A stretch of 64,000 nucleotides of DNA from Paucibacter sp. DJ2R-2 (lineage in GTDB: Bacteria > Pseudomonadota > Gammaproteobacteria > Burkholderiales > Burkholderiaceae_C). Position numbers and translations under genes: made by a program. The stretch spans positions 1,302,001 through 1,366,000 of the forward strand of contig NZ_JAJIRT010000001.1 in the NCBI RefSeq assembly GCF_025717675.1, written 5' to 3'. The notes beneath the pieces are model-generated. The model did no database searches, was not told the DNA's origin, and was given only the letters and a program-made list of their open reading frames with translations. Of the stretch, positions 4,201-17,657 are shown in pieces. How positions within the stretch are numbered: position 1 is the first letter of the stretch; each line of letters starts with the position of its first letter.

Positions 4201-5020
4201 ACAAGATCGCGTCCTTGCCCTGGAAGCGCCGCGCCTCGGTCAGGCCGCCCGAGCTCTGCATGAAGAACAGAGGGACACCCGGCATCTGTGAAGCCACCTG
4301 CTCGACATAACGCTTCAAAATGGGTGACAGGTAGGCATCGACCACGGTGGTGTCGCCGCGCGGCACCAGCTTCATCAGCGGGCTGACCTCGTGCGAGACC
4401 GAGACCTGGCTGAAGCCGATCTCGCGCGCCAGTGCTGCGGCGCGCTGCTCGTGCGCCGGGTAGCGGTAGCTGTGCAGGAAGACGATGGCACAAGCGCGCA
4501 GGCCGGCATCGAATGCTGCTTGCAACTGCGCGCGCAGATCGGCTTCGTCGAGAGCCTGCACCGTCTGCCCATCGGCTGCCATGCGCTCCTGCGCCTCGAC
4601 CACGCGGCTGTAGAGCAGCTCGGGCAGCACGATTTGGCGCGCGAACAGCTGCGGCCGCGCCTGGGTGGCGATGCGCAACGCATCGCGAAAACCACGCGTG
4701 GTCACCAGCAGCGTCGGGTCGCCCTTGCGCTCCAGCAAGGCATTGGTGGCCACCGTCGTGCCCATCTTCACGCACTCGAGCTGCGCCGGCGTGATCGCCT
4801 CACCGGGCTGCAGGCCCAGCAGGCGGCGTATGCCTTCGACCGCCGCATCACCGTACTGCTCGGGGTTCTCGGACAGCAGCTTGAGCGTGTGCAGCTGGCC
4901 ATCGGGCGCTCGGCCGACCAGATCGGTGAAGGTGCCACCGCGGTCAATCCAGACTTGCCACAGCGCCGGAGCGCGGGCGGAGGTACCGTCGGGTGCGGGA
5001 AGGCGTTCAGCAGCGGACAT
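1250..5020 (-). CDS. Fused hydantoinase A/B family 5-oxoprolinase
   Basis: A 1256-residue protein with the two-domain layout of eukaryotic-type 5-oxoprolinase (ATP-dependent opening of 5-oxoproline to glutamate) and of fused HyuA-HyuB proteins. The N-terminal HyuA half has the nucleotide-binding motif [11 protein letters not shown] near residue 25 and [15 protein letters not shown] further on. The HyuB half begins around [20 protein letters not shown] and includes [15 protein letters not shown] and the C-terminal PGAGGFG. Length matches the family (about 1250-1290). I chose the ATG of [12 protein letters not shown]; an in-frame start 35 codons upstream would add an unlikely Ser/Cys-rich extension. 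It is a single gene with no partner beside it. Substrate could be another cyclic amide; 5-oxoproline is the default guess. Confidence 0.88.
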
Positions 5021-5202
5021 GGAGCAAGATGAGCGAGCGCAAAAGCGCGATTGGAACAGAGTGCACGCGGATGCAGCCTTGCTGGACGGCGAGGGCCAGC
5101 GTTCGGCTTCCATGACGGAGGCCAAGCCAGCGAACGATCTTGGCTGGCGTCGAGGTCGTGATCAAGCGCCGACCGGCGCGCGTCTTGTGCCGCGTTCCTC
5201 AG

Positions 5203-5916
5203 TCACCACAGCAAACCCAGCAAGGCGGCCCGCACGGCCGCGGCGGTGCGGTTGCTGGTGCCCAGCTTGGCGCAGGCATTGCGGGTGTGGAAGTTCACCG
5301 TCGCCTCCGAGATGATCATGATCTGCGCGATGTCGGTGGAGGTCTTGCCCTCGCAGGCCCAGCGCAACACATCAAGCTCGCGGCTGGACAGCGTGGCCTC
5401 GGCATCGTCCCGCAACAAATCGCCCCAGACCTTGAGCATGCCGTCATGGCACATCACGGACAGCCAGTACAGACGCTCACGCTTGGCGGCCAACTCCTCG
5501 GCACCGATGTCGCCCTCCGGCCGGACAAAACTCAGCAGGCTGTTCATGCCGCGCGCATCACGCCGCGGCACGCCCACCCCATAACGAAGACCATGGGCGG
5601 CGGCATCGGCCATGAACTCGGGTGCCTTGGCACGGTTTGACTCGTCCCAGACAAACATCTCGTCCGAGGTGATGGCCTGTTGAACCGAAGGGTCAATTCG
5701 AATGTAGTCCCGCTCGCTGTAGCGCCGTTGCCACTCGATCGGGTAGTTGCTGCACCAGACCACCCGCGGTGCCGCCAGCGGCACGGGCCCCTTCATCCCG
5801 AAAGAGCAATATTCGAAGCCCAGGCGCTGCCCTTCGGCCCGAATCAGATCAAAGGCTTCCTGCGACGACGAGGCGCTTCCAACCAGACGAAGCTGATCGC
5901 TCTGCCAGCATTTCAT
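5203..5916 (-). CDS. luxR: LuxR-type acyl-homoserine lactone receptor/regulator
   Basis: A 237-residue cytoplasmic transcription factor with the two LuxR-family domains. The autoinducer-binding domain (about residues 15-160) keeps the ligand-pocket residues of the family: W62, Y66, D75 followed by P76, and W90, with the same spacing as TraR W57, Y61, D70, W85. The C-terminal GerE helix-turn-helix covers residues 175-237 (LSSRELDVLRWACEGKTSTDIAQ, then the recognition helix SEATVNFHTRNACAKL). I chose the ATG of MKCWQSDQ, which gives the usual family length; a GTG 23 codons upstream is the alternative. The synthase gene luxI lies 0.8 kb away in the opposite direction, with an rsaM-like gene between them, so this is probably the cognate receptor and not an orphan. 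Exact signal not predictable. Confidence 0.93.
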   Translation of the reverse strand: MKCWQSDQLRLVGSASSSQEAFDLIRAEGQRLGFEYCSFGMKGPVPLAAPRVVWCSNYPIEWQRRYSERDYIRIDPSVQQAITSDEMFVWDESNRAKAPEFMADAAAHGLRYGVGVPRRDARGMNSLLSFVRPEGDIGAEELAAKRERLYWLSVMCHDGMLKVWGDLLRDDAEATLSSRELDVLRWACEGKTSTDIAQIMIISEATVNFHTRNACAKLGTSNRTAAAVRAALLGLLW

Positions 5917-6053
5917 GGGCTTGCCGCACCACGGCGGCGCTGAGGGAATAAGGCCGGGAAATTTACATTGGCCGGCGACGCTCACTCGCTAGGGCAAGTA
6001 CCTACAGCCGCCGGGCCTTTCAAGCCTTGCTTCCCGCAAGGGTCAGCGCTTCC

Positions 6054-6464
6054 CTATCGGATCTCGCAGCCTTCTGACTTCAGTGCATCCAGAACCTGGA
6101 TGGCCCAATTCCAGCAGCTGAGCCAATCCTGCAAGCCCTGTTCCGTCTGGGCGCGGCCCAAGTCCGCACCCTCGGGCGTGATCAGCATGATGTTGGTGCG
6201 TATCGAATGAGGCCGAACGTCCATGGCACCTGACGGCACATGAACGTACCAATCCCAACCCAGGGAATAGCCCTGGTCAGCCGTGTCCGCCCATTCCGTG
6301 TAACCGCCGATTTCCGTGGATAGCCAGGCCCCCTCTTGATCTGCGCGGCCGGCCGCCCTTGACGCCTCAAGATCGACATGGGATTCCAGGTGCCGAAAGC
6401 TCAGCTGCTTCAGCTGTTCACGGCTCAGCCGCAGGTAGTAATCGATAGTCATGGGAACAGCCAT
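6054..6464 (-). CDS. rsaM: RsaM-like (DUF4902) quorum-sensing modulator
   Basis: A 136-residue soluble protein between luxR and luxI. Visible features are LRLSREQLKQLSFRHLESH, EASRAAGRAD, GGYTEW, SLGWDWYVH, and RTNIMLITPEGADLG with a C-terminal WLSCWNWAIQVLDAL helix. From memory these match the RsaM/DUF4902 family, which in Burkholderia and Pseudomonas fuscovaginae sits between the AHL synthase and receptor genes and dampens AHL production. Position, size and motif order agree. It lies downstream of luxR's divergent partner luxI and is transcribed in the same direction as luxR, 137 bases upstream of it, so the two may share a transcript. Start is uncertain: ATG codons give MAVPMTID or MTIDYYLR, and a GTG lies six codons further upstream. 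Function by family analogy only. Confidence 0.8.
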   Translation of the reverse strand: MAVPMTIDYYLRLSREQLKQLSFRHLESHVDLEASRAAGRADQEGAWLSTEIGGYTEWADTADQGYSLGWDWYVHVPSGAMDVRPHSIRTNIMLITPEGADLGRAQTEQGLQDWLSCWNWAIQVLDALKSEGCEIR

Positions 6465-6550
6465 TGGCACATGTCCGGTCACGCCGCGCCCTCAGGCGCG
6501 CGGCTCACAGCACTTGGGGGTTTCGGCCAAGAGCCAGCAGGGGCAGCAGG

Positions 6551-6570
6551 GTCAGCAAGCACTGGCTGAC
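6551..6570. promoter_or_regulatory. 20-bp imperfect palindrome upstream of rsaM-like gene
   Basis: GTCAGCAAGCACTGGCTGAC reads as a dyad with 8 of 10 base pairs matched, including a perfect 6-bp outer arm. Size and place (about 90 bases before the rsaM-like start, 170 before luxI) fit a lux-box-like operator in the divergent promoter region. This is inference; no binding protein is shown. Confidence 0.35.
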
Positions 6571-6644
6571 GGCCCGCGCCCGTCCCAGCAGGACAAAGCC
6601 AAGCAGCGCGAAGTGAATATACCGAACCTACTCCGCAGGGTGGC

Positions 6645-6665
6645 CTCACAAATCTGTCAGTTGTC
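6645..6665. promoter_or_regulatory. Candidate lux-type operator upstream of luxI
   Basis: The core ACAAATCTGTCAGTTGT is an imperfect dyad (ACAAnT-N5-AnTTGT) about 75 bases before the luxI start. The 21-base segment matches 18 of 21 bases at 15022-15042, where it is part of a longer perfect inverted repeat. Recurrence at both ends of the cluster suggests a shared regulator, most simply the LuxR protein encoded here. Confidence 0.5.
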
Positions 6666-6739
6666 GACTAACCGCCCGTGAACTGAAATCCGGGCCGCAA
6701 CAACGACAGTACCGATGCCCCCCCTAAAGGAGTGCCTGC

Positions 6740-7390
6740 ATGCACATCGAATGCCACGCCGACACGGCCCTGAGCGAACGAGCCCGTTTCGAACTTGCCA
6801 GCTACCGCCATGAGGTGTTCGTCGAACGGCTCGGCTGGGACCTACCCTGCCAGCCGGGACTGGATCAGGACCAGTTTGACCTGCCACAGGCTGTGCACTT
6901 GGCCGCCCGCGCCGATGACGGCCACCTCATCGGCTATGCGCGCCTGCTGCCCACCACCGGGCGCTACTTGCTGGCCGAGCTGTTTCCCGACTTGCTCGGC
7001 CAGCAGGCAGCACCGCAAGATGCCGCCGTCTGGGAACTGTCCCGCTATGCCGCGATGGACACCCACGGTTCAGGCAACGCCAGCGACGAACTGTTCGTTG
7101 GCAAGCAGGTGCTGCTGCGCGCCATCTTGACTGCGGCAGGCAGCGGCGCGGAGCGCCTGGTGTTCTGCACCTCCGTCGCCATCGAACGGCTCGCCATGCG
7201 CTGGGGTGTGGACATCCATCGCATGGCCCCGCCCGTACGCCATGGCAGGCAATTGCTGGTGGCGGCCGTGATCGAGTTCAGCGAGCAGACCTTGCGCGCC
7301 CTGAGCAACAGAGACAGCCTGGCACTCAGCGCAGCCGCCGTGGCCATCCCAAGGGCAGCCTCCGCACCAGCGGTGATCCGCCTCACCTGA
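6740..7390 (+). CDS. luxI: Acyl-homoserine-lactone synthase
   Basis: A 216-residue LuxI-family enzyme that makes an N-acyl-homoserine lactone from S-adenosylmethionine and an acyl donor in the cytoplasm. The conserved charged and aromatic residues of the family are present: R23 in YRHEVFVERLGW, F27, W33, D44, D47, R68 in GYARLLPTT, E99 and R102 in WELSRYAA. The C-terminal 30 residues are Ala-rich and variable, as usual. The start has a strong ribosome binding site (AAAGGAG, 7 bases before ATG). A candidate operator lies about 75 bases upstream and a strong terminator follows 37 bases after the stop, so it is probably its own transcription unit, divergent from rsaM-luxR. Acyl chain length cannot be read from the sequence. 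Confidence 0.95.
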   Translation: MHIECHADTALSERARFELASYRHEVFVERLGWDLPCQPGLDQDQFDLPQAVHLAARADDGHLIGYARLLPTTGRYLLAELFPDLLGQQAAPQDAAVWELSRYAAMDTHGSGNASDELFVGKQVLLRAILTAAGSGAERLVFCTSVAIERLAMRWGVDIHRMAPPVRHGRQLLVAAVIEFSEQTLRALSNRDSLALSAAAVAIPRAASAPAVIRLT

Positions 7391-7427
7391 TCCGCACCAC
7401 CCTCCCCTCGGACCACCGTCCTGCACC

Positions 7428-7457
7428 GGCCGCCTTGCACAAGGCGGCCTTTTTTTT
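7428..7457 (+). terminator. Rho-independent terminator after luxI
   Basis: Perfect 9-bp stem (GGCCGCCTT / AAGGCGGCC) with a GCAC loop, followed by eight T. It separates luxI from the peptide operon, which therefore needs its own promoter in the next 350 bases. Confidence 0.92.
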
Positions 7458-7805
7458 CGCGACATACCGCAGCCAAATTAGGCCTTGGACCAGCGCACAT
7501 ATTTTCGTCCGATCTCTGTGATCGGCATTTTTGGTAATCCGCTTGGCCAGTATCTGCAGCAATTGAAAGCCTGCCAATCTTGGTTTCAAAGCGCCGACCA
7601 GGTCTATATCTAACATTTCTGCTAGTAGCGCCAGCGAAACGACCGCCATAAAGTTCAACTCATGCGCTAACGAATCACCGGACACCACCGGAACGCTGCA
7701 GAACAAGGTGGTATCGATTCAAAAGCCATGGCTCCTGGAGTGATCCGGAAGTCGAATCTACCGAACGACCATCACGGTCATTTTTAACTTCAATTAGGAA
7801 ACATC
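7458..7805 (+). promoter_or_regulatory. Leader/promoter region of the peptide operon
   Basis: A 348-base stretch of clearly lower GC than its surroundings between the luxI terminator and the precursor gene. It holds an imperfect 27-bp inverted repeat at 7563-7589 (TTGAAA / TTTCAA arms with inner CC/GG) that could be an operator, and ends with AGGAA five bases before the precursor ATG. No convincing gene is seen; the longest open frame, on the minus strand, overlaps the terminator and the luxI end. No exact copy of the motif at 6645-6665 is present here. Confidence 0.5.
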
Positions 7806-7970
7806 ATGCAACACACCAATCTGGAAAACCTGAAGGACGAGCTGGCTACTGTCGAACTGGACCAGCGTTTTGAAATGGTCAACGCTGGCGTCATGGACGG
7901 AATCATTGATATCGAAAACTTCATCTGCAAGCCGAACCCCCAGCAGCCGACGCCTGAAGCACCCAACTGA
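7806..7970 (+). CDS. Candidate RiPP precursor peptide, 54 residues
   Basis: A short gene with a good ribosome binding site (AGGAA, 5 bases before ATG), placed directly before the protease, acyltransferase-like, radical SAM and export genes. The N-terminal half is amphipathic and acidic (NLENLKDELATVELDQRF), typical of a helical leader recognised by maturation enzymes. The second half holds VNAGVMDGIIDIENFICK with a single Cys (C41) and ends in a Pro-rich tail PNPQQPTPEAPN. There is no Sec signal and no clear double-Gly site. By position and character it is most likely the substrate of the radical SAM protein at 10369-11760; leader/core border and modified residues are unknown. I do not recognise a described precursor family. 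Confidence 0.75.
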   Translation: MQHTNLENLKDELATVELDQRFEMVNAGVMDGIIDIENFICKPNPQQPTPEAPN

Positions 7971-7985
7971 TTTGGGCCCAAGTCG

Positions 7986-8005
7986 GAGACGGGCTTGCCT
8001 GTCTC
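7986..8005 (+). other. RNA hairpin after the precursor gene (first of two)
   Basis: GAGACGGG-CTTG-CCTGTCTC forms an 8-bp stem with one G-U pair, 15 bases after the precursor stop. No T-run follows. Together with the next hairpin it could limit read-through or protect the 3' end of a short precursor mRNA. Confidence 0.5.
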
Positions 8006-8014
8006 TGATCCAGA

Positions 8015-8046
8015 GGCACCCTGAAACGGTTGGGTTTCAGGGTGCC
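8015..8046 (+). other. Strong 13-bp hairpin between precursor and protease genes
   Basis: Perfect 13-bp stem (GGCACCCTGAAAC / GTTTCAGGGTGCC) around a 6-base loop, without a T-run. It lies between the precursor stop and the next start, where many peptide operons use a partial terminator or processing site so that more precursor than enzyme is made. Confidence 0.75.
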
Positions 8047-8073
8047 ATCCGTAGTCGGAAAACCAGTCCTACC

Positions 8074-9231
8074 ATGAGCAAGCCAGATATCCATAGCCTG
8101 CTTGAACAGGTGCAGATTCAGGTGGTTGACGGCAGCCATCAGGCCACCTTGAATGGCCGGCATTTCAAGATCAAACCTCAGTTGTACGAGGCCTTGACCG
8201 TGATGAAGGCCGAAGGCGTCGAGATCGGCATCGAGCAACTCAGGGTTCGCTGGGCTATTTCCGCCGATGCCCGTGAGGTATTTCGTACCCAGCTCCTGGA
8301 CAGTATCGAAAGCCTGGTCTCCAAGCCCGCCAAGTCGTCCTACATCCATAGCTCGGTGACCGTCCTGTCAGCACCGCTGGTGCAAGGCGTGTCGGCTTGC
8401 CTGACCGGCTTGTTTGACCGCCGCGTGGCCTGGGTCGCAGGCCTTTTGTGCCTGCTGGTGTTTGGCGATTTGCTCTTCTTCCACCAAGTGGGCGGCACAC
8501 AGTTGCGCAGCATTGACCTGAGTGCGCTCGATTGGCTGCTGTCGTATGCCTGCATTTTCGCCATTCTTCTGTTTCATGAATTGGGCCATGCCACGGGTAT
8601 GCGCCGGGCCGGCCAGTTGCCTGCAGAGATCGGCTTTGGTTTCTATCTGATCTTTCCCGTGTTTTTCGCCAATGTCAGCAATGCTTGGCTGGTTGACCGG
8701 CGGTCGCGCTTCATGGTCAGCCTGGGCGGTATTTACTTTCAAATGCTGGCCGCCGTGCTGCTTTATGCCGGCATTGCCTTGACCGACGGGCGTCCGCAAG
8801 TTTGGTTATCGCTGGCATTCAAGGTGAACATAGCCACCGCCTTGTTTGTTCTGATTCCCTTTATTCGCAATGACGGTTACTGGCTATTGGCCGATTTTTT
8901 AGGCCTGCACGATCTATATCAACGCGCCGGCGGCATGTGCTGGATTATTTTCCAAAATTTACGCCACGGCCGACCTGTCAGTCGCATCGAATGGTTTATT
9001 GCCTGCTACGCAATTTGCAATTATTCATTCCTGAGTTTTTGCATATGGAGTTTGGCAAAGTCCACGCATTTTCATTTTTCACGGTGCGTCGAAGTACTGT
9101 CTGACGCCGGTTGGAAATCCCTTTTTCTCAGCCACCCCCAAACCCTGGTGTCCAGCGTGCTGAGCGTGATTGTTCTGCACTTCTTCATCTACCCCTTGCT
9201 GAAAAGAGCGTACCAACATGTCAGCAAATGA
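8074..9231 (+). CDS. M50-family membrane zinc metallopeptidase with N-terminal PqqD-like region
   Basis: A 385-residue integral membrane protein. The zinc site HELGH is at residues 168-172 inside a hydrophobic segment, and the third-ligand motif NDGYWLL (D267) follows at the expected distance, as in site-2-protease-type M50 enzymes. At least six membrane segments are visible. The first 85 residues are soluble; ATLNGRHFKIKPQLYEAL and the following helix resemble the PqqD-like peptide-recognition fold, which would let it bind the leader (inference). YydH-type M50 proteins in epipeptide operons are an analogy: they sit beside a radical SAM enzyme and ABC exporter. The start is ATG of MSKPDIHSLL; an upstream in-frame ATG would overlap the precursor gene. 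Ends 14 bases inside the next gene. Likely role: leader cleavage or maturation at the membrane. Confidence 0.85.
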   Translation: MSKPDIHSLLEQVQIQVVDGSHQATLNGRHFKIKPQLYEALTVMKAEGVEIGIEQLRVRWAISADAREVFRTQLLDSIESLVSKPAKSSYIHSSVTVLSAPLVQGVSACLTGLFDRRVAWVAGLLCLLVFGDLLFFHQVGGTQLRSIDLSALDWLLSYACIFAILLFHELGHATGMRRAGQLPAEIGFGFYLIFPVFFANVSNAWLVDRRSRFMVSLGGIYFQMLAAVLLYAGIALTDGRPQVWLSLAFKVNIATALFVLIPFIRNDGYWLLADFLGLHDLYQRAGGMCWIIFQNLRHGRPVSRIEWFIACYAICNYSFLSFCIWSLAKSTHFHFSRCVEVLSDAGWKSLFLSHPQTLVSSVLSVIVLHFFIYPLLKRAYQHVSK

Positions 9232-10372
9232 AGGGCTCTACCAAGAACTCAGGCACGCGCATCAGTCCGCTTTGTGCAATGCGCGTCTTCGCGCTGCCGA
9301 ACTCAATTTCGACGCGCCCGATGCACCATGTCTGGATTGGTTCCGATTTCGCGTCGCCACTGGCCATTTTTTCCCCGAATTGATGCCAGGTGAAAATCGG
9401 GAGCTCTATCTCGAAAACCTCGCCTGGCGGGATTTGAAGAAATTCGAGTTCAGCCGGACCGATGATTTGGAAGCGGCGGGCTTGCTGACCCTGCAAAGCG
9501 GCCAAACGCACCCTGGACCGGCCATCTACTGCACCTTTCATATGGGCGGCTGGGCCGTTCAACCGGTTCTTTTGCTGCACCGGAACATCCCGCTGACCAT
9601 CGTTGCAGGGCCTCATGTCAGCGAGGGGCAAGGCACGCAATGGGTGCAAATGAACAGCGTCTGCCTGGCACAAGAACGCTGGCAGGCGGATCTGGCGGTG
9701 ATCAACACGGACGGCCAAAGCGCCCTGATTCAGATGATGCGTCAGCTGCGGCAGGGACGCAGCCTCTACATCTGCCTGGATGGCCACCGCAGCGTCCGGG
9801 GCGAAAGCGCGCATCTTGCCCATGACCGCCATGGCCTGACCGTTCGGTTGAACGGTCGAGATTTGCGTGTCCGCCCAGGAGCCGCGTATCTGGCCCACCA
9901 GCTGGGCGTGCCCCTGGTGCCCATGATGTCCTGGCGCGACACCGACGGACGTGCCAATGTGGAGATCGGTGAAGCGATCCACCCCGAGGGCGACCGCGAG
10001 GCCTTTGCCCAGCAGGCCCTGCAGCAGCTCTGGAGCAGATTCGAGTCGCTGGCTCGGGTACACGGTGCGCAATGGGAGATGGGCTGGCACAGCTACCGCA
10101 GCCGCCCCGTCGCACAGCCAGCAGGCGACTTCGAGCTTCAGCGTCACTACCGTTTCAACGCCGAGCGCTACCACCTGTACCAGCCGGCCCAAGGTTTGCT
10201 TCTGGACGCCAAGACCGATGAGCTCAAACGCGTGCCTGCGTCCTATGCCACCTGGCTGGGCCAATTGCGCCAGCGCACCGCCGCCATCCCCGGGCAGTGG
10301 CTGGCTGAGCAGATCAAGGATGCCCACTCCCTGCAACAGATTGTCGCCAGCGAGCTGCTGGTGGCCCAATGA
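9218..10372 (+). CDS. LpxL/HtrB-like acyltransferase-fold protein with altered catalytic motif
   Basis: A 384-residue protein of the lysophospholipid/lipid A acyltransferase type. The motif FHMGGWA around H108 corresponds to the HxGNWE motif, YICLDGHRSVRG to the later acceptor motif, and VRPGAAYLAHQLGVPLVPM to the conserved block after it. The catalytic His is kept, but the acidic residue five positions later is Ala (A113). The last 75 residues (YHLYQPAQGLLLDAKTDELKRVP onwards) lie beyond the usual enzyme end and look like a PqqD-type small domain. No N-terminal membrane anchor is obvious, unlike LpxL. Overlaps the protease gene by 14 bases and the radical SAM gene by ATGA, so it is co-translated with both. 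It might acylate the peptide, or be an inactive scaffold; both are inference. Confidence 0.78.
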   Translation: MSANEGLYQELRHAHQSALCNARLRAAELNFDAPDAPCLDWFRFRVATGHFFPELMPGENRELYLENLAWRDLKKFEFSRTDDLEAAGLLTLQSGQTHPGPAIYCTFHMGGWAVQPVLLLHRNIPLTIVAGPHVSEGQGTQWVQMNSVCLAQERWQADLAVINTDGQSALIQMMRQLRQGRSLYICLDGHRSVRGESAHLAHDRHGLTVRLNGRDLRVRPGAAYLAHQLGVPLVPMMSWRDTDGRANVEIGEAIHPEGDREAFAQQALQQLWSRFESLARVHGAQWEMGWHSYRSRPVAQPAGDFELQRHYRFNAERYHLYQPAQGLLLDAKTDELKRVPASYATWLGQLRQRTAAIPGQWLAEQIKDAHSLQQIVASELLVAQ

Positions 10373-11760
10373 CCATGTCCACACAAACACCCAGCCTCAA
10401 GATCAGCCGGTACCTGGCCGTCAGTCCCGCCGTGGGTCGGCGTGCCTTCCGCATGGTGTATTCCACCCGCAGCGCCCGCGCCCTGTTGGTGAGCGACGCG
10501 GACTGGTCGGATGTGCAGCAAGGTCATCTGTCGCAGTTGCCGGCCGCCCTGCGGCAGGCGATGACGGAGCACAAGATCCTGGTCCCGGCCGAGGAGGACG
10601 AGCGCAGCCAGGTGATCGCCTACAACAAGGCCGCCATTGCGGCGGACGACTTGCTCTATCTGGCCATCGCCCCCTCGGCGAACTGCCAGTTGGGCTGTGA
10701 CTACTGCGGCCAGCAACACGAAAACCGCCGCATGGACGACAGCATCATGCGCGGTGTACTCCAACGCGCGCAGGAGAAACTGAAGCGCCGCGCCTGCACC
10801 CGGCATTTTCAGATCGGCTGGTTCGGTGGCGAGCCGCTGCTGGGCATGGCGAACATCCGCATCATGACGCCGCAGCTGCAAGAGCTCGCGCGCCAGCACC
10901 AGCTCAGCTACAGCGCCCAGATGGCCACCAACGGCGTGGCCCTGACACCGAGGCTCTTCTTCGAACTGGTGCAGCAACACCAGGTGATGGCTTTTGACAT
11001 CACCCTGGACGGTGCGCAGGCCGACCACGACCGGCGCCGCGTCACCAAGGATGGCCGCCCTTCGTTCAAGCGCATCCTGAACAACCTCAAAGGCATTGCG
11101 GCCGACCCTCGCTTTGCGGACTGCGGGGCCCGCATCAGCATCCGTTGCAATGTGGACAGCCGCAATCACGAGGGCACGCTGGCCCTGCTGGACACGCTGA
11201 TCGCGCACGACCTGCTGCGCCATTTCCAGTTCTACACCGCGCCGGTCCACAGCTGGGGCAACGATGCGCACCTGACCTCGCTGAGTCAACAGCAGTACGC
11301 CGACTTTGAGGTCGACCTGCTCGCCCGGCTGATGAATGCAGGCCATGCCCCACGCTTGCTGCCCAAGACTCTCACACCGATCGTGTGCATGAGCCTGCGG
11401 CCGGACGCCGAATTGACCGACCCCTACGGCGAAACCTTCAACTGCACCGAGATCTCGCAGGTGCCGGCCTACAAGGAAGTGCGCTTCTACCGCCTTGGTG
11501 AACTGGGCCAGCCCGCGCCTGTGCCGCCCCGAGAGCGCCCCTTCGGCGACTGGAACGACCGCATCCTCGCGGGTGATGTGCCTTGCCACAACTGCCGGAT
11601 CCTGCCCATCTGCGGAGGCCAATGCCCCAAGAAGTGGCTGGAAGGGATCTCGCCGTGTCCGTCGATCAAGCACAACATCGAATCGCGCATGACGCTGGAG
11701 ATGGTGCGTCTGAACCGACAGAACGGCCTCATCCACTCGCACGAGACCGCCGAGGCCTGA
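10369..11760 (+). CDS. Radical SAM/SPASM peptide maturase
   Basis: A 463-residue cytoplasmic enzyme. The radical SAM cluster motif CxxxCxxC is C106-C110-C113 (ANCQLGCDYCGQQH), followed by GWFGGEPLLG, the usual GGEP SAM-binding motif. The C-terminal SPASM region has C340, C359, C406, C409, C415, C419 and C430 (CHNCRILPICGGQCPKKW, then ISPCPS), enough for two extra iron-sulfur clusters. The N-terminal 95 residues resemble the peptide-binding N-terminus of other maturases. Such enzymes install carbon-carbon or carbon-heteroatom crosslinks or epimerise residues in RiPP precursors. The start overlaps the stop of the preceding gene (ATGA). Substrate is most likely the 54-residue peptide; the reaction type cannot be read from the sequence. 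Confidence 0.93.
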   Translation: MTMSTQTPSLKISRYLAVSPAVGRRAFRMVYSTRSARALLVSDADWSDVQQGHLSQLPAALRQAMTEHKILVPAEEDERSQVIAYNKAAIAADDLLYLAIAPSANCQLGCDYCGQQHENRRMDDSIMRGVLQRAQEKLKRRACTRHFQIGWFGGEPLLGMANIRIMTPQLQELARQHQLSYSAQMATNGVALTPRLFFELVQQHQVMAFDITLDGAQADHDRRRVTKDGRPSFKRILNNLKGIAADPRFADCGARISIRCNVDSRNHEGTLALLDTLIAHDLLRHFQFYTAPVHSWGNDAHLTSLSQQQYADFEVDLLARLMNAGHAPRLLPKTLTPIVCMSLRPDAELTDPYGETFNCTEISQVPAYKEVRFYRLGELGQPAPVPPRERPFGDWNDRILAGDVPCHNCRILPICGGQCPKKWLEGISPCPSIKHNIESRMTLEMVRLNRQNGLIHSHETAEA

Positions 11761-11853
11761 GGACATCAGCCTGCGCCGCGGTCGAACCGATAGCCGAACC
11801 CCTTCCCCCACGAAAGCCCCAGCGCAAACGGCGCGGGGCCTGAGGAGCCAATC

Positions 11854-13041
11854 ATGCTGAAACCGCAACGTCGTCGCTGGGTCATGCTGGGCAGTGTGCT
11901 CAGCGTCCTGCTGCTCGCAGGCTGGGCCTGGAACAGCCAGGCCTCGTCCAGCCAACGACCTTCGCCCTACAAGTTTTCCTCGCTGGACGAGGGCGCCATC
12001 ACGCAGGTCATCATGGCCAATGGCAGCCTGCAGCCGGTCTCCACCGTGACCGTCGGATCGGCTGTGAGCGGCACCGTGGCGCAGCGCCTGGTGGACTTCA
12101 ACGACCGGGTCGTCAAAGGCCAGGTCCTGGCCCGACTGGATGCCGCGCACTTTGAGGCGCGTGAGCGCCAGGCCTCGGCCCAGCTGAGTGCGGCGCAGGC
12201 CCGGCTGGCCTACGCCGAAGGCCATCTGCGCCGCAACGAAACCCTGGCGGCCCAGGGCTTCATCGCCGCGCCCCAACGCGATCAGAGCCAGCGTGAAGTC
12301 GATACGGCGCGCGCGGACCTCGACCTGGCACGCGCCCAGCTGGACGCCGCCCGCACCGACCTGAACCACAGCATCATCCGTGCCCCGGTCGATGGCGTCG
12401 TCATCAAGCGCAGCATCGATGTGGGACAGACCGTCGCGGCCAGCTTCCAAACCCCGGAACTGTTTCTGATCGCCCGCGATCTCAACGAGATGGTGATTCA
12501 AGCCAACGTCAGCGAGGCGGATGTGGGCCTGGTCCGCGAAGGCCAAGCGGTGCACTTCGTGGTGGACGCTTTTCCCGCGCGGGAGTTCGAGGGCAAGGTT
12601 CAGCAATTCCGTTTGAATCCCAGCAACACCCAGGGCGTCGTCAGCTACACCGTGATCGTCAACGTGGCCAACCCGCAAGGGCTGCTCAAACCCGGCATGA
12701 CCGCCCAGACCCGCATCGTCGTGGCCAGCCAGGCCAAGGCGCTGCGCCTGCCCACAGCAGCCCTGCGCTTCAAGCCCAGCGAGGATGAACTGGCCAGCCC
12801 GGCGCGGCAGGCCGGTCAGCACAACGCGAAGGCCAGCGATGACGGCGTGCTCGGCAATGTGCGTCAGGGCCAGCGTGTCTTCAAGGTGTACACCGAAGGC
12901 CCGAACCGCAAGCTGCAAGCCCATGAGGTGACCATCGGTATCGCCAACACCCGCTACACCGAGTTGCTCAGCACGACACTCCGGCCTGGCGAGCAGGTGG
13001 TCATCCGCCGCGCCAAGGCCGACGCTCGCGATGGCGCTTGA
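11854..13041 (+). CDS. MacA/HlyD-like periplasmic adaptor of the peptide exporter
   Basis: A 395-residue membrane fusion protein. One N-terminal membrane anchor (VMLGSVLSVLLLAGWAW) precedes a lipoyl/barrel-sandwich half (NGSLQPVSTVTVGSAVSGTV), an alpha-helical hairpin rich in Ala, Glu and Arg (residues about 95-180) and the second lipoyl half (IIRAPVDGVVIKRSIDVGQTV), followed by the beta-barrel region. The ribosome binding site GAGGAG is 8 bases before the ATG. It starts 93 bases after the radical SAM gene and overlaps the ATPase gene by 11 bases. With the next two genes it makes a MacAB-type tripartite exporter reaching an outer-membrane TolC-like channel encoded elsewhere. Same organisation as the DarBCD exporter of darobactin clusters (analogy). 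Confidence 0.93.
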   Translation: MLKPQRRRWVMLGSVLSVLLLAGWAWNSQASSSQRPSPYKFSSLDEGAITQVIMANGSLQPVSTVTVGSAVSGTVAQRLVDFNDRVVKGQVLARLDAAHFEARERQASAQLSAAQARLAYAEGHLRRNETLAAQGFIAAPQRDQSQREVDTARADLDLARAQLDAARTDLNHSIIRAPVDGVVIKRSIDVGQTVAASFQTPELFLIARDLNEMVIQANVSEADVGLVREGQAVHFVVDAFPAREFEGKVQQFRLNPSNTQGVVSYTVIVNVANPQGLLKPGMTAQTRIVVASQAKALRLPTAALRFKPSEDELASPARQAGQHNAKASDDGVLGNVRQGQRVFKVYTEGPNRKLQAHEVTIGIANTRYTELLSTTLRPGEQVVIRRAKADARDGA

Positions 13042-13798
13042 GCTCATGGCGCCCCATCCCCAAGGCCAAATGGCCGCCACCGCCAGCCGTCCCAAGGACC
13101 CGGTGCTCAGCCTGCGGGGCATCCGCAAGAGCTATCGCAGCGGCGATGTGCAAACCCCCGTGTTGCACGGCATCGACCTCGATGTGCAAGCCGGCGACTA
13201 CGTGGCCCTGATGGGCTCCAGTGGCTCCGGCAAAAGCACCCTGATGAACCTCATGGGCCTGCTGGACCGCTGCGACGAGGGCAGCTACACCCTGCAAGGC
13301 CACGACGTCAGCCAACTCAGCGCCGCACAGCACGCCGAGGTTCGCAATGCACGAATCGGCTTTGTGTTCCAGAGCTTCAACCTGCTCAAGCGCATGAGCG
13401 TGCTGGACAACATCGCCCTGCCGTTGATCTACGCCGGCCGCAGCCGCGCGTTCGCCCGCAAGCGCGCCGAGCGACTGCTTGAGCAAGTAGGCTTGGGCAC
13501 CATGGCCTCACGCATGCCCAACCAGCTCAGCGGCGGTCAGCAGCAGCGCGTTGCCATCGCCCGCGCCCTGGTCAACGAGGCCCCTCTGCTGCTGGCCGAT
13601 GAGCCCACCGGCAACCTGGACACGCAAACCACAGCCGAGGTGCTGGACATCTTCGAGCGCCTCAATCGCGAGACCGGACTCACCATCGTCCTCGTCACCC
13701 ACGAGCCGGATGTCGCCCTCCAGGCGCAACGCTTGGTGCGCCTGAAAGATGGACGCATCGCATTCGATGGTCATCCTCAGGAACAGGCCCACGCATGA
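13031..13798 (+). CDS. MacB-like ABC transporter ATPase
   Basis: A 255-residue nucleotide-binding protein. Walker A is GSSGSGKST, the Q-loop VFQSFNLL, the signature LSGGQQQRVAIARAL, Walker B LLLADEPTGNLD, and the switch His lies in LVTHEPD. This is the LolD/MacB/SalX subfamily that pairs with FtsX-type permeases. It overlaps the adaptor gene by 11 bases and the permease gene by four (ATGA), so the three subunits are translationally coupled. A second ATG five codons in (MAPHPQGQ) could be the true start. Powers export of the mature peptide across the envelope, by context. Confidence 0.94.
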   Translation: MALELMAPHPQGQMAATASRPKDPVLSLRGIRKSYRSGDVQTPVLHGIDLDVQAGDYVALMGSSGSGKSTLMNLMGLLDRCDEGSYTLQGHDVSQLSAAQHAEVRNARIGFVFQSFNLLKRMSVLDNIALPLIYAGRSRAFARKRAERLLEQVGLGTMASRMPNQLSGGQQQRVAIARALVNEAPLLLADEPTGNLDTQTTAEVLDIFERLNRETGLTIVLVTHEPDVALQAQRLVRLKDGRIAFDGHPQEQAHA

Positions 13799-15009
13799 AA
13801 CCGCTGCAAATCCTCAACGAAGCCCTTCGCGCCCTCAACAGCAATCGCCTGCGCAGTGCGCTGACCATGCTGGGCGTGGTCATCGGCATTGCATCGGTGC
13901 TGCTGATGCTCAGCGTGGGCGACGCGGTGCGCAGCTACATCGCCAAGGAGCTGGCCGTGCTGGGCAGCAACCAGTTGATCGTGCAGCCCGGCACACCGGT
14001 GGAGGGCGGCGTTAGACGACGCGCCGGCGACACGCCCAATCTCACCCTCGACGATGCGCGCGCCTTGGCCCAGCTGCCCAGCCTGCGCGGGGCCGCACCG
14101 GCGCTGCAAGGCTTCTTCCAGCTGCACTACGGTGACGCCAACAGCAACCAGACCGTGCTGGGCACCATCCCCGCCATGCTGGAGCTGCGTAACTGGCAAA
14201 TCGAGCGCGGCGTGGCCATCGACGAGCGCGATGTCCAATCCGCCAACCGTGTGGCGGTGATTGGCTCCATGCTGGCGCGCAAATACTATGCCGATCGTGA
14301 CCCCGTCGGCCAGGTGCTACGCCTCGATGGGCAACCCTTCACCATCATCGGGGTGCTGGCCGGCAAAGGCCGCACCTTGGACGGCACCGAACTGGGCGAA
14401 CTGACGCTGGTGCCCATCAGTGCCATGCCTCTGCGTCTGGCTCGGCCGGGCCTGGTGCACTACATCAGCCTGCAAGCCCACAGCGCCAAGCACATGGACG
14501 ACGCCCGCCAGGACGCCGAAGAACTGCTGCGCGACCGCCACCACATCACCGGCGACAAGAAAGACGACTTCGTCATCACCGATCTGGCCAGCATCGCCGA
14601 GACCGGGACCTCCATCGCCACGGGGCTTTCCGTCGGGCTGGGGGTCATTGGCGCCATCTCCCTGCTGGTCGGCGGCATCGGCATCATGAACATCATGCTG
14701 GTCAGCGTGTCTGAGCGGGTGCGCGAGATCGGCATCCGCATGGCCATTGGTGCCCGCCCACGCGACGTGCTTTGGCAATTCCTGGGCGAAGCCCTGGTGT
14801 TGTGCCTGATCGGCGGCGTCATCGGTCTGGGGCTGGCCGCCCTGGGTGCGCTGGGCGTCAACAGCTTGGACAAGATGAGCGTGAGCCTGTCCACCCAGCA
14901 CATGGCCGTGGCCGTCGGCTTTGCCAGCTTGGTCGGCCTGTTTTTCGGCTACTACCCGGCACGCCGCGCCTCCACCCTGCTGCCCATCGAATGCCTGCGC
15001 CAGGACTGA
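13795..15009 (+). CDS. MacB-like ABC transporter permease of the peptide exporter
   Basis: A 404-residue inner-membrane protein with the MacB layout: one N-terminal membrane helix (SALTMLGVVIGIASVLLML), a periplasmic MacB_PCD domain (about residues 45-255) and three C-terminal FtsX helices, ending PARRASTLLPIECLRQD. It is the separate-permease form of MacB; the ATPase is encoded by the preceding, ATGA-overlapping gene. It is closely related to the permease cut off at the left edge of the window (75 percent identity over 88 residues). An inverted repeat follows 10 bases after the stop. Confidence 0.93.
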   Translation: MKPLQILNEALRALNSNRLRSALTMLGVVIGIASVLLMLSVGDAVRSYIAKELAVLGSNQLIVQPGTPVEGGVRRRAGDTPNLTLDDARALAQLPSLRGAAPALQGFFQLHYGDANSNQTVLGTIPAMLELRNWQIERGVAIDERDVQSANRVAVIGSMLARKYYADRDPVGQVLRLDGQPFTIIGVLAGKGRTLDGTELGELTLVPISAMPLRLARPGLVHYISLQAHSAKHMDDARQDAEELLRDRHHITGDKKDDFVITDLASIAETGTSIATGLSVGLGVIGAISLLVGGIGIMNIMLVSVSERVREIGIRMAIGARPRDVLWQFLGEALVLCLIGGVIGLGLAALGALGVNSLDKMSVSLSTQHMAVAVGFASLVGLFFGYYPARRASTLLPIECLRQD

Positions 15010-15018
15010 GATGCCACA

Positions 15019-15047
15019 GGACTGACAAATTTGCCAGTTGTCAGTCC
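15019..15047. promoter_or_regulatory. Perfect 10-bp inverted repeat, candidate lux-type operator
   Basis: GGACTGACAA-N9-TTGTCAGTCC, with no T-run behind it, so a protein-binding site is likelier than a terminator. Bases 15022-15042 match 18 of 21 with the sequence upstream of luxI (6645-6665). It lies about 100 bases before the exported-protein gene and just after the exporter operon. Confidence 0.6.
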
Positions 15048-15142
15048 CTAGCCGGCCGGATGAAATCTGATCAGGCGAAAAACCTCACAACGCCGCAGCA
15101 CGCAAGAGCCGAAACACCCTGAACCCGATTGGAGCGACCGCC

Positions 15143-15970
15143 ATGCGCCAGACCCCTCTGATGTTCCCGTGCGCCAGACCCGCAAACCGAGTGCCTCCCT
15201 GGCCGCGCCTGAATCTGGGCCTCGCCCTGATCTGCATCGCACTGCCGGTCAGCGCCCAGGCGCCAGAACCCATCACCGAAGCCCCGCCCGAGATCGCCAC
15301 TACGAGTGACGCGACGCTGGAGCGGGTGGTGGTCGGTGGCTCGCGCAGCGTGGTCATGCCCTACCAAAACTGGATCAAGGCCGCAGCCCCGATCCACGAG
15401 ATCAGCCACGGCCTGCTGCGCTTTGGCGCAAGGCTATACAGCCAAGACACCAGCCGCCCGCTGCGGGTCTCCGTCCTGGACGAAGACAAAGACCTGCCCA
15501 TTGCCCCGCTGCTCGGCCAGCTCTATGTGGTGCCGCACGACCTGCCGGTTCAGCCACAGCACGCCGACTTCAGCATCAACCGCGCCGAGGGCCAATGGGG
15601 CGTGGGCAACTTCGCGCTGGTGCCTCAACTCACAGCCCAGACCCCCGACATGGCCAGCGTTCGCCAGGTCTTGCTGGCCTACCAGGCGCTGTACCGCAAG
15701 CAGTTCCCGTTGAGCTGGCGCCTCCTTTCACGCTCCGAGGCCAGCTTCGACGTCTGCACCCCGCGTGAAGGGGAAACCCTGCATGCCAGCCAGGCCGACG
15801 GCACCGAACTGGCCAGTCTGCGCATGGACCAAAAGGTCAAAGACCATGGCCGCACCACGGGTCGCACCCTCTACTGCGCCAGCATCAAGGCCAATACCGA
15901 CTGGGGCGACCAGGTGCGCCTCAAGCTGCCGGCGCAGGCCATTGCCCTGCTGGGCTTCAGGCTGATCTGA
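15143..15970 (+). CDS. Exported protein of unknown function, possibly part of the peptide cluster
   Basis: A 275-residue protein with a long basic N-terminus, a hydrophobic core (LNLGLALICIALPVSAQA) and a cleavable signal ending near residue 39. The mature part has no family I recognise; it contains VVVGGSRSVVMPYQNW, HEISHGLLRFG and two Cys (VCTPREGE and LYCASIK) that could form a disulfide in the periplasm. HEISH resembles a HExxH zinc motif (residues about 90-94), but no other protease features are seen. The gene stands alone between the exporter operon and a terminator, with the inverted repeat at 15019-15047 in its promoter region, which ties it to quorum-sensing control by inference. Could be an immunity, processing or target-related factor. 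Confidence 0.75.
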   Translation: MRQTPLMFPCARPANRVPPWPRLNLGLALICIALPVSAQAPEPITEAPPEIATTSDATLERVVVGGSRSVVMPYQNWIKAAAPIHEISHGLLRFGARLYSQDTSRPLRVSVLDEDKDLPIAPLLGQLYVVPHDLPVQPQHADFSINRAEGQWGVGNFALVPQLTAQTPDMASVRQVLLAYQALYRKQFPLSWRLLSRSEASFDVCTPREGETLHASQADGTELASLRMDQKVKDHGRTTGRTLYCASIKANTDWGDQVRLKLPAQAIALLGFRLI

Positions 15971-16086
15971 ACCCAGGGCAGGCGCCCGCGCATGTCGCTG
16001 GGCAGGACCGGTCGAGCGCGAGCGAATTGAAAGCTCGCGCTTGAATAGACACCCGATGGCATCTGACAACCATGGCTTGATGCAGA

Positions 16087-16118
16087 AAAAGGCCCGCGTC
16101 CTCTAGGAGCGCGGGCCT
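16087..16118. terminator. Bidirectional terminator between exported-protein gene and ssb
   Basis: GGCCCGCG / CGCGGGCC stem with inner CCT/AGG pairing. On the minus strand, the direction of ssb, it is followed by five T; on the plus strand by TTCTC. It serves two converging genes. Confidence 0.8.
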
Positions 16119-16147
16119 TCTCACAACGAAATTTCGTAAGTGCGGAA

Positions 16148-16265
16148 TCAGAAAGGGATGTCGTCATCCATATCGTCCTCCGAAGGGACGATCAGAATGG
16201 AATATCGTCATCCATATCGTCTTCCGCAGGGACGATCAGAAAGGGATGTCGTCATCCATATCGTC
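16148..16265 (-). repeat. Three tandem copies of the ssb tail-coding sequence (44-bp unit)
   Basis: Units begin at 16148, 16192 and 16236; the last is the true end of ssb. Each, read on the minus strand, encodes DDMDDDIPF and a stop, but 44 is not a multiple of three, so each is in a different frame. The two outer units differ at 5 of 44 bases and 4 of these are silent in the tail frame. Confidence 0.9.
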
Positions 16266-16814
16266 AAAACCGGTCGCCGGGCGCGGCGCCGGGGCGGGCG
16301 CAGGGCGGGCTGCCGGGGGGCGCGCGGCCGGGCGAGCCGGGGCGCGAGGGGCAGGGGCGTCACCGTAGTCGTCGCCACCACCGCCGTAGGACGCAGCGCC
16401 GCCGCCGGCCGCAGCGCCTGCGCCACGACCTTCGCGGGCACCGTAGCCGCCACCACCACCACCGCCTTCATCGCCGGAGTCACGGCCGCCGAGCAGCTGC
16501 ATCTCGTTGGCGATGATCTCGGTGGTGTAGACCTCCTTGCCTTCCTTGTCGGTCCATTTGCGGGTGCGCAAACGGCCTTCGACGTAGAGCGGGCGGCCCT
16601 TCTTGCAGTACTGGCCGACGATCTCAGCGAGCTTGTCGTTGAACACCACGCGGTGCCATTCGGTCTCTTCCTGCTTCTCGCCGGATTCGCGGTTCTTCCA
16701 GTTGCGCGTGGTCGCCAGGCTGATGGTGCAGAACGCGACGCCGCTGGGGTTGTAGCGCAGCTCGGGGTCGCGCCCCAGGTTGCCGATGAGAATGACTTTG
16801 TTGACCGAGGCCAT
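16236..16814 (-). CDS. ssb: Single-stranded DNA-binding protein
   Basis: A 192-residue SSB. The N-terminal OB-fold (residues 1-110) shows [42 protein letters not shown] and [12 protein letters not shown] Gly-, Ala- and Pro-rich linker follows, then the acidic partner-binding tip DDMDDDIPF used to recruit RecQ, exonuclease I and other repair proteins. The reading frame is open further upstream, but the ATG of MASVNK is the family start. Two additional out-of-frame copies of the tail-coding sequence follow the stop codon. The bases CCCTTTC directly before the stop have the X-XXY-YYZ form of a minus-one slippery site. A terminator ends the transcript. It is divergent from the transglutaminase-like gene. 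Confidence 0.97.
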
Positions 16815-16940
16815 ATTGCGCTCCGCTGGCGATAAACGCGAGATTATGCCGCCGCCCCCGCTGCCCTGCCCAAACTTGACCCCGTACTGGCTCCAGGCTT
16901 CCCAATGCGGGCATCGCCCACAAGAGCTCAGGAGCCCGAG

Positions 16941-17657
16941 ATGCCCGACACACTCCAGCCCGCCCTGCTGCAAAGCAGCCCCATCCTGGACTATGAACAT
17001 CCACGCATCCAAGCCTTGCTGAGCGAGCGCGGCTGGTCGCTCTTGCCGGAGGCCGAGCGCATCGGCGCCATCTATGACTTCGTGCGCAAGGACATCGCCT
17101 TCGGCTACAACAGCGGCGACGAGATCCCGGCCTCCCAGGTGCTGGCCGACGGACTGGGCCAGTGCAACACCAAGGGCAGCCTGCTGATGGCCCTGCTGCG
17201 GGCCAGCGGCATCGCCTGCCGCTTCCACGGTTTCACCATCGACAAGCACTTGCAGAAGGGCGCCATCACCGGCCTGGCTTACTGGCTGGCGCCGCGCAGC
17301 ATCGTGCACAGCTGGGTCGAGGTCTGGCTGGACGGACGCTGGCTGGAGCTGGAAGGCTTCATCCTCGATGCCGCCTACCTGAGCGCCCTGCAGCGCCGTT
17401 TCCCGCAAGCCCGGGCCTTCTGCGGCTACGGCGCCGCCACGCCGAATCTGCAGGCGCCCGGGGTGGAATGGTGTGGCCGCAGCACCTACATCCAGAAGGA
17501 CGGCATCAAGCACGACTTCGGCCGTTTCGACACGCCCGATGACTTTTATGCCCGGCACGGCAGCAACCTCAGCGGCCTCAAGCGCTGGCTGTTCGTGCAC
17601 GCCATCCGCCACGCCATGAACCGCCGGGTGCGCGCGATCCGGCAGTTCCCGGGCTGA
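16941..17657 (+). CDS. Transglutaminase-like domain protein
   Basis: A 238-residue cytoplasmic protein of the transglutaminase/protease-like family. The catalytic Cys is in [20 protein letters not shown], the His in [14 protein letters not shown] and the Asp in [10 protein letters not shown], in the order C-H-D with normal spacing. The region after residue 150 ([18 protein letters not shown]) is specific to this subgroup. The start was set at the ATG of MPDTLQP, preceded by AGGAG; an upstream ATG lacks such a site. It is divergent from ssb with 126 bases between the starts. Likely a peptidase or amidase on a small substrate; the real substrate is unknown. Confidence 0.85.

Follow-up and report, generated by a model that had tools for sequence, protein, structure and literature searches.

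The 64-kb window analysed here, a stretch of contig C1 (1302001-1366000) of the 5.8-Mb genome of Paucibacter sp. DJ2R-2, contains at 7806-15009 an operon of the ribosomally synthesised and post-translationally modified peptide (RiPP) type with an unusual enzyme set, an assignment that is well supported by its gene content. Its seven genes, all on the plus strand, encode a precursor open reading frame (ORF), an M50-type protease, an LpxL-like protein, a radical S-adenosylmethionine (SAM)/SPASM enzyme, a MacA-like adaptor, a MacB-like ATPase and a MacB-like permease. We regard the cluster as real and unusual, a variant of the lipidated-RiPP type of cluster in which both acylation and quorum control are putative. 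By analogy with known systems, the operon may make a small lipidated RiPP with the LpxL-like protein as its acyltransferase, a reading that we consider evenly balanced.

Gene content of the operon

The sequence-only reading of this DNA had described the same gene set, in order from precursor to permease, with overlapping starts and stops for most genes. All seven genes are in place with their domains and motifs, and four of the six junctions overlap (M50/LpxL-like by 14 nt, LpxL-like/radical SAM by 4, MacA/ATPase by 11 and ATPase/permease by 4). Gaps of 103 nt and 93 nt separate the precursor from the M50 gene and the radical SAM from the MacA gene, respectively, all lengths being computed with the ATG at 8074 as the start of the M50 gene. 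The set thus has the makeup of a RiPP cluster, a short precursor gene adjoining a modifying enzyme, a protease and an exporter (Table 1).

Table 1. Operon genes, quorum-sensing genes and associated elements, in window positions
Feature	Position	Strand	Basis
Candidate precursor peptide, 54 aa, one Cys (C41)	7806..7970	+	AGGA site, best codon score of local small ORFs
Hairpin, 13-bp perfect stem, between precursor and M50 genes	8015..8046	+	Fold test
M50-type intramembrane metalloprotease	8074..9231	+	HELGH and NDG motifs, NCBIfam matches
LpxL/PatA-fold acyltransferase-like protein, H108-x4-A113	9218..10372	+	PF03279, Foldseek, alignments
Radical SAM/SPASM peptide maturase	10369..11760	+	Radical_SAM family, cysteine motifs
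MacA-like periplasmic adaptor	11854..13041	+	TIGR01730 over cut-off
MacB/LolD-type ATPase	13031..13798	+	ABC_tran over cut-off
MacB/FtsX-type permease	13795..15009	+	MacB_PCD and FtsX over cut-off
Genomic island, ~11 kb (luxR, rsaM, luxI, RiPP-type operon, gene 15143)	5167..16237		Alignment breaks against relatives; right border 16.09-16.24 kb by relative
luxR-type regulator	5203..5985	-	Autoind_bind and GerE over cut-off
rsaM	6054..6482	-	DUF4902 over cut-off; structure match 4o2h (protein BCAM1869), E 2.3e-14
lux-box-like palindrome ahead of luxI	6643..6670	+	Pattern scan
luxI-type acyl-homoserine-lactone synthase	6740..7390	+	Autoind_synth over cut-off
Intrinsic terminator after luxI, 9-pair stem and run of 8 T	7428..7457	+	Terminator scan
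lux-box-like palindrome ahead of gene 15143, starting 11 bases past permease stop	15020..15047	+	Pattern scan
Gene 15143, probable secreted protein, 275 aa, hydrophobic N-terminal stretch	15143..15970	+	Hydropathy

The ORF at 7806 has an AGGA ribosome site ahead of its ATG and runs for 54 codons. Its codon score of 0.236 is the best among the five ORFs in 7391-8074 that reach 25 codons, the other four scoring between -0.594 and 0.011; for comparison, 11 known genes range from 0.137 to 0.635. The peptide has no family match in Pfam or NCBIfam and none in plasmids by tblastn at E ≤ 1, and a hydropathy scan finds no hydrophobic stretch in it. Candidate modification sites in its C-terminal half are F39, C41 and K42. 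Downstream, the stretch 8000-8062, which spans the hairpin at 8015-8046, folds at z = -5.32, with none of 200 shuffles as good. This hairpin is a probable attenuator or mRNA-stabilising stem, and its placement would suit a precursor made in excess over its enzymes.

The protease is classed as M50-type because of its motifs, HELGH and NDG, both intact when checked on the translation, together with NCBIfam matches below cut-off, the best being to the daptide HExxH protease (85.6 bits, cut-off 300) and the YydH/LiaK epipeptide protease (51.9, cut-off 225). Here and below, the best 25 family matches were taken for proteins with long match lists. Against Pfam Peptidase_M50 the protein scores 16.9 bits, below the cut-off of 27.2. 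It matches 42 plasmid records by tblastn, none covering 80% of the protease, of which two were examined by neighbourhood; the same search of phages gives no match. A Muribaculaceae plasmid (CP061010.1; L013:4146-9146), typed as mobilizable, carries in a row a radical SAM maturase, a 759-aa outer-membrane-like protein and an M50 protease; between them lies a 47-aa ORF whose end is rich in Cys. This cassette is RiPP-like and unannotated, and the stretch examined holds no LpxL-like match.

The radical SAM protein scores 32.9 bits against Pfam Radical_SAM, over the cut-off of 29.5, and its cysteines, CX3CX2C and the SPASM set CX2CX5CX3C, are intact on the translation, as expected of a maturase. 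Its best NCBIfam match, TIGR04463, reaches 193 bits, below the cut-off of 525, so it is not assigned to that family. Relatives occur in 72 plasmid records. Three of these, from Rhizobium etli, Streptomyces and Methylomagnum, were examined by neighbourhood, and besides the radical SAM protein no island protein, M50 and LpxL-like included, matches there at E ≤ 1e-3. A single relative was found among 298 other sampled genomes, and the ORFs picked in its 9 kb give no match to the M50 or LpxL-like protein. In the Rhizobium etli stretch (L010:8671-13973), which looks like another uncharacterised RiPP cluster, the closest plasmid relative among those found (37.5%) is accompanied by a candidate precursor of 77 aa, a GNAT, a protein with a JmjC domain and one of 351 aa carrying an HEAVH motif. 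A defence-system search with PADLOC returned as its sole match the viperin model against the radical SAM protein (32.8 bits), which reflects generic radical SAM similarity; a defence function is rejected.

The exporter comprises an adaptor over the TIGR01730 cut-off in NCBIfam and an ATPase and permease over the cut-offs of ABC_tran, MacB_PCD and FtsX, the latter two proteins lying below the curated NCBIfam cut-offs of the darobactin exporter and MacB. A second macAB set lies upstream, beside the 5-oxoprolinase gene but on its far side from the island; it extends over L044:12090-15000 to about window position 267, its end falling within the window's first 264-267 bases. Its proteins share 64-81% identity with those of the cluster exporter (64% for the adaptor) and are 99-100% identical between the host genome and a relative (G011). 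This set is probably the genus's resident pump, of which the cluster pump would be a diverged cousin.

The LpxL-like protein and the Thalassotalea locus

The 384-aa LpxL-like protein, which the sequence-only reading had singled out as the unusual part, is borne out as such and carries an acyltransferase assignment. It scores 26.3 bits against Lip_A_acyltrans (PF03279), over the cut-off of 22.3, and has three NCBIfam matches, all below cut-off: a mannoside acyltransferase model and two models of lipid A acyltransferases. Structure models of this protein and of its counterpart in Thalassotalea loyana are both of low confidence (mean pLDDT, predicted local distance difference test, 45.8 and 48.4). 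Foldseek matches at E ≤ 1e-3 are PatA/LpxM entries for the window protein (13 of 13) and PatA/LpxM/PlsC entries for the T. loyana protein (15 of 15). On these low-confidence models, the predicted fold is that of the lysophospholipid acyltransferases (LpxL/PatA/PlsC).

HX4D/E is the catalytic pair of this fold. The window protein keeps the histidine (H108) and has A113 in place of the acid, where the T. loyana protein has R; across the four weak relatives in the sampled genomes this position holds D, E, T and R, the T belonging to L048, which has no M50 neighbours. An amine or thiol acceptor, needing a general base less than LpxL's hydroxyl acceptors, could explain the lost acid. Both the window and T. 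loyana proteins keep a shared Asp-Gly (D188-G189 in the window protein) and continue at the C-terminus for some 80 residues past the acyltransferase core. A membrane-anchor hydropathy test was non-discriminating, as two ordinary LpxL-type controls came out without an anchor too.

This protein type appears to be rare in the genomes sampled. Across samples that overlap and differ in E limits, the window protein found its own genome only (1 of 59, 1 of 399 and 1 of 369 genomes), and a further search found 5 of 398, namely its own and the four weak relatives. Each of the other queries, the T. loyana protein (1 of 118 genomes) and a two-row alignment (1 of 295), recovered T. loyana itself only. Single-protein scans of genome and viral contigs gave no relative, a second genome-contig scan, with an alignment query and poor peptide patterns, gave T. 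loyana only again, and neither protein matches plasmids by tblastn.

Among the four weak relatives, only that of Thalassotalea loyana LMG 22536 (G1093; L049, on the same contig as L054) has an M50 match; L050-L052 have neither an M50 nor a radical SAM match across some 20 kb. The T. loyana genes run on one strand in the order 73-aa ORF, M50 protease, arginase-family protein, LpxL-like protein, glutaredoxin-like protein, adaptor, ATPase and permease, followed by a ketosynthase, a MaoC-type dehydratase, an acyl carrier protein (ACP), a TauD-type oxygenase and a FabG-like reductase that is incomplete at the edge of the stretch. Upstream, past a CadC-like regulator gene, comes a gene for a phosphopantetheinyl transferase. 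All three junctions among the M50, arginase-family, LpxL-like and glutaredoxin-like genes overlap, and acyl-supply genes adjoin the acyltransferase-like gene. In small comparisons the T. loyana protease is 28.5% identical to the window protease (E 3e-23) and the LpxL-like protein 22.8% identical to its window counterpart (E 7e-11; 4.8e-8 in the genome search). The exporter's best NCBIfam matches are all below cut-off: the ATPase to DarD (262 of 375 bits), the permease to ADOP (480 of 622) and the adaptor to RND_mfp (90.4 of 94.9), with lower matches to DarC (79.5 of 450) and DarB (36 of 700).

The two loci share a module of M50 protease, LpxL-like protein and MacB-type pump, and differ in the tailoring enzyme, radical SAM in one and arginase-family in the other. 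We read them as variants of one layout that would make an acylated RiPP. In T. loyana, the arginase-family, acyltransferase-fold and ACP-dependent acyl genes together suggest a peptide that contains ornithine and is acylated.

Genomic island and quorum-sensing genes

The cluster and luxR-rsaM-luxI are co-resident on one island. On the evidence of sequence comparison, luxR through gene 15143 is a single, apparently acquired island of about 11 kb. The sensor kinase gene at 17762 was found in 10 other genomes of the genus, and the loci of eight were compared. In six of these eight, the 5-oxoprolinase gene (1250-5125) lies on the sensor-kinase stretch, 1.6-4.8 kb off in five and 12.8 kb off in L039, which holds other DNA between the two genes. 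None of the eight loci gives a tblastn match at E ≤ 1e-5 to luxR, rsaM, luxI, the precursor, M50, LpxL-like or radical SAM genes or gene 15143. Borders were placed by DNA alignment to five of the eight. In the nearest relative, L036, alignment extends to window position 5166 and resumes at 16238; 129 bp separate the two ends, and some 0.6 kb of DNA particular to L036 lies beside the oxoprolinase gene. The left border depends on a short match (103 columns, 76%). In L037 the flanks stand 3.4 kb of other DNA apart and alignment resumes at 16150; in L038 it resumes at 16086. Third-position G+C is 0.61-0.73 in luxR, rsaM and the precursor, M50 and LpxL-like genes, 0.80 in luxI and 0.82-0.86 in the radical SAM and exporter genes and gene 15143, so the island looks composite.

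Two lux-box-like palindromes lie at 6643-6670 and 15020-15047, the latter also able to fold as a 10-pair hairpin. Their pattern, which was built from the two sites themselves, has no other match in the genome within three mismatches, and a reversed-pattern control gives none. As the sole palindrome sites, they predict luxI and gene 15143 as the likely direct LuxR targets. The strong terminator after luxI means that the operon needs its own promoter in 7458-7805; the best lux-like site near the operon start, at 7560, reaches a score of 13.7, compared with 29-30 at the two strong sites. The structure matched by the rsaM product, 4o2h (BCAM1869), we take to be RsaM. LuxR probably times the island's program; direct LuxR control of the operon itself is conjectural.

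The sequence-only reading had called the cluster quorum-sensing-linked, which stands for its location and is weakened for its control. That the cluster and luxRI are independent passengers sharing the island, the cluster not being quorum-controlled, has in our judgement just under an even chance, and is compatible with any other reading of the product. The terminator favours it, as do the two lux-box-like genome matches, which precede luxI and gene 15143 and not the operon. However, the island is one compact 11-kb unit that relatives lack, the second site comes directly after the permease gene, so that the two sites bracket luxI and the cluster, and the weak site at 7560 ranks fourth among plus-strand positions of the 64 kb. 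The island is also a compact test case for quorum-sensing timing of a RiPP.

Gene 15143, preceded by the strongest of the lux-box-like palindromes, has no Pfam or NCBIfam match; of 17 other genus members, five have relatives of it, all weak (23-26%). Elsewhere in the host genome lies a second intact LuxI-like gene (245 aa; contig C7, L018:1150-1887, minus strand); within the surrounding 19 kb (L060), none of the remaining island proteins, LuxR among them, gives a match at E ≤ 1e-3. Beyond the island, a transglutaminase-core gene at 16905-17657 occurs in none of the eight relatives' loci and forms a separate insertion amid conserved DNA. The ORF at 16140-16835 is of low complexity, with its DNA conserved in relatives, and its status as a gene is doubted.

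Proposed product and comparison with known systems

Gene content, motifs, overlaps, the island and the second locus are observed directly; from these we infer the substrate, acylation, cleavage, export and regulation. The radical SAM/SPASM enzyme would modify the C-terminal half of the 54-aa precursor near F39-C41, with F39, C41 and K42 as candidate sites. The LpxL-like protein most likely acylates the precursor, by analogy with the T. loyana locus and selidamide chemistry, and would then place a fatty acyl group on the K42 amino group, an N-terminus or C41, the donor most likely being acyl-ACP. After acylation, the leader would be removed within the membrane by the M50 protease, and the product would leave through the MacAB-type pump together with a TolC-like channel whose gene lies elsewhere. 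A broader claim, possible but in our view somewhat doubtful, is that such loci form a distinct lipidated-RiPP family, in which an LpxL/PatA-fold enzyme rather than a GNAT acylates the peptide from ACP. Trimming would fall to the M50 protease and export to a MacB-type pump, and the tailoring enzyme would be exchangeable, a radical SAM enzyme in the window and a peptide arginase in Thalassotalea. In this strain, the peptide would belong to an acyl-homoserine-lactone-controlled island, with LuxI and the acyltransferase drawing on one acyl-ACP pool.

Several observations weigh against a lipidated product from a shared layout. The acid of HX4D/E is absent from both LpxL-like proteins, so catalysis is not assured, and the window operon contains no acyl-supply genes. 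The T. loyana locus has no match to the window radical SAM protein or adaptor at E ≤ 1e-3, and the 54-aa and 73-aa ORFs are dissimilar, 330 of 500 shuffles being as good. A profile comparison for a leader-binding domain shared by the LpxL-like C-terminus and the M50, arginase and radical SAM N-termini was negative (probabilities ≤ 0.3%). Only two loci have the M50 and LpxL-like pair, in an incomplete genome sample. The operon includes no TolC gene, and a sigma-70 scan finds no promoter-like site on the plus strand in 5900-15300.

The RiPP operon may be real and the LpxL-like protein serve self-protection, altering lipid A or another envelope lipid against the cell's own peptide. This is consistent with a fold family that includes lipid A and glycolipid acyltransferases and with the retention of H108, but we think it unlikely: the gene overlaps those of the protease and radical SAM enzyme, the T. 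loyana copy sits with arginase-family and ACP/ketosynthase genes, the HX4D/E acid is missing and none of the three NCBIfam acyltransferase matches exceeds its cut-off. We assign a low probability, too, to a non-catalytic scaffold or leader-binding partner of the radical SAM enzyme or protease, with an unlipidated product. A113 in place of the usual acid and the extension of about 80 residues in both loci suggest such a role; yet both proteins keep the His and the shared Asp-Gly, T. loyana has acyl genes, and L048 also lacks the acid (T), hence its loss is no proof of inactivity. A pearlin-like route, in which the peptide is a scaffold from which the M50 protease frees a small modified end product, as TglG and TmoG do in the available portion of PMC10885120, is very improbable, since no PEARL or TldD/E family appears among the Pfam and NCBIfam matches listed for the operon proteins.

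Acylation by the LpxL-like protein thus remains our preferred reading, and the combination was thought undescribed on the sequence alone. In the open-access literature searched, among top-ranked results of larger sets, no RiPP pathway with an LpxL/PatA-type enzyme was found (the daptide query came back empty), whereas the layout itself is not unique, given the T. loyana variant with its arginase-family gene. Lipidation decides the potency of many peptide antibiotics. The RiPP-acylating enzymes named in the available portions of PMC9505594, PMC12636315 and PMC13060382 are GNATs or lipoprotein machinery; a further acylating fold with a recurring cluster layout, if true, would provide a new genome-mining handle and a new lipopeptide-making tool.

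Selidamide logic couples a peptide arginase with acylation by GNATs (available portions of PMC9505594 and PMC12703449), and GNAT enzymes likewise acylate phaeornamide, kamptornamide and the nostolysamides (those of PMC9505594 and PMC13060382). As in these GNAT-lipidated RiPPs, the peptide would be modified and then probably fatty-acylated, and T. loyana has an arginase-family gene, as does the phaeornamide cluster in the text available. Unlike them, the window has an LpxL/PatA-fold protein and a radical SAM enzyme and no lanthionine synthetase, and none of its seven operon proteins matches a GNAT in Pfam; luxI, which is not part of the operon, does match a GNAT-type domain, as LuxI proteins are expected to. 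DAG-RiPPs are lipidated via Lgt, LspA and Lnt (available portion of PMC12636315). The window product would resemble them as a putatively lipidated RiPP, whereas its precursor has no hydrophobic stretch.

Epipeptides (EpeX/YydF) combine a radical SAM enzyme, an M50 protease and an ABC transporter, all three of which the window has. Their protease is EpeP (available portion of PMC10885120). The window protease differs in its YydH/LiaK score, which is below cut-off, the radical SAM protein is nearest TIGR04463, and the operon adds an acyltransferase-like protein and a MacA adaptor. The daptides share the protease's best NCBIfam match, the daptide HExxH protease; that match, however, is below cut-off, and none of the remaining daptide-type enzymes is seen in the operon. 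Darobactin and dynobactin clusters likewise pair a radical SAM/SPASM enzyme with a MacB-type exporter, and the ATPases of the window and T. loyana score 236 and 262 bits against DarD (cut-off 375). The window radical SAM protein reaches only 36.1 of 650 bits for DarE and 68.2 of 450 for DynA, the permease 13.6 of 700 for DarB, and the window adds the M50 and acyltransferase-like proteins. With its protease, radical SAM enzyme, ATPase and permease all below the curated cut-offs of the models concerned, the cluster would work like these known systems while being filed under none of them.

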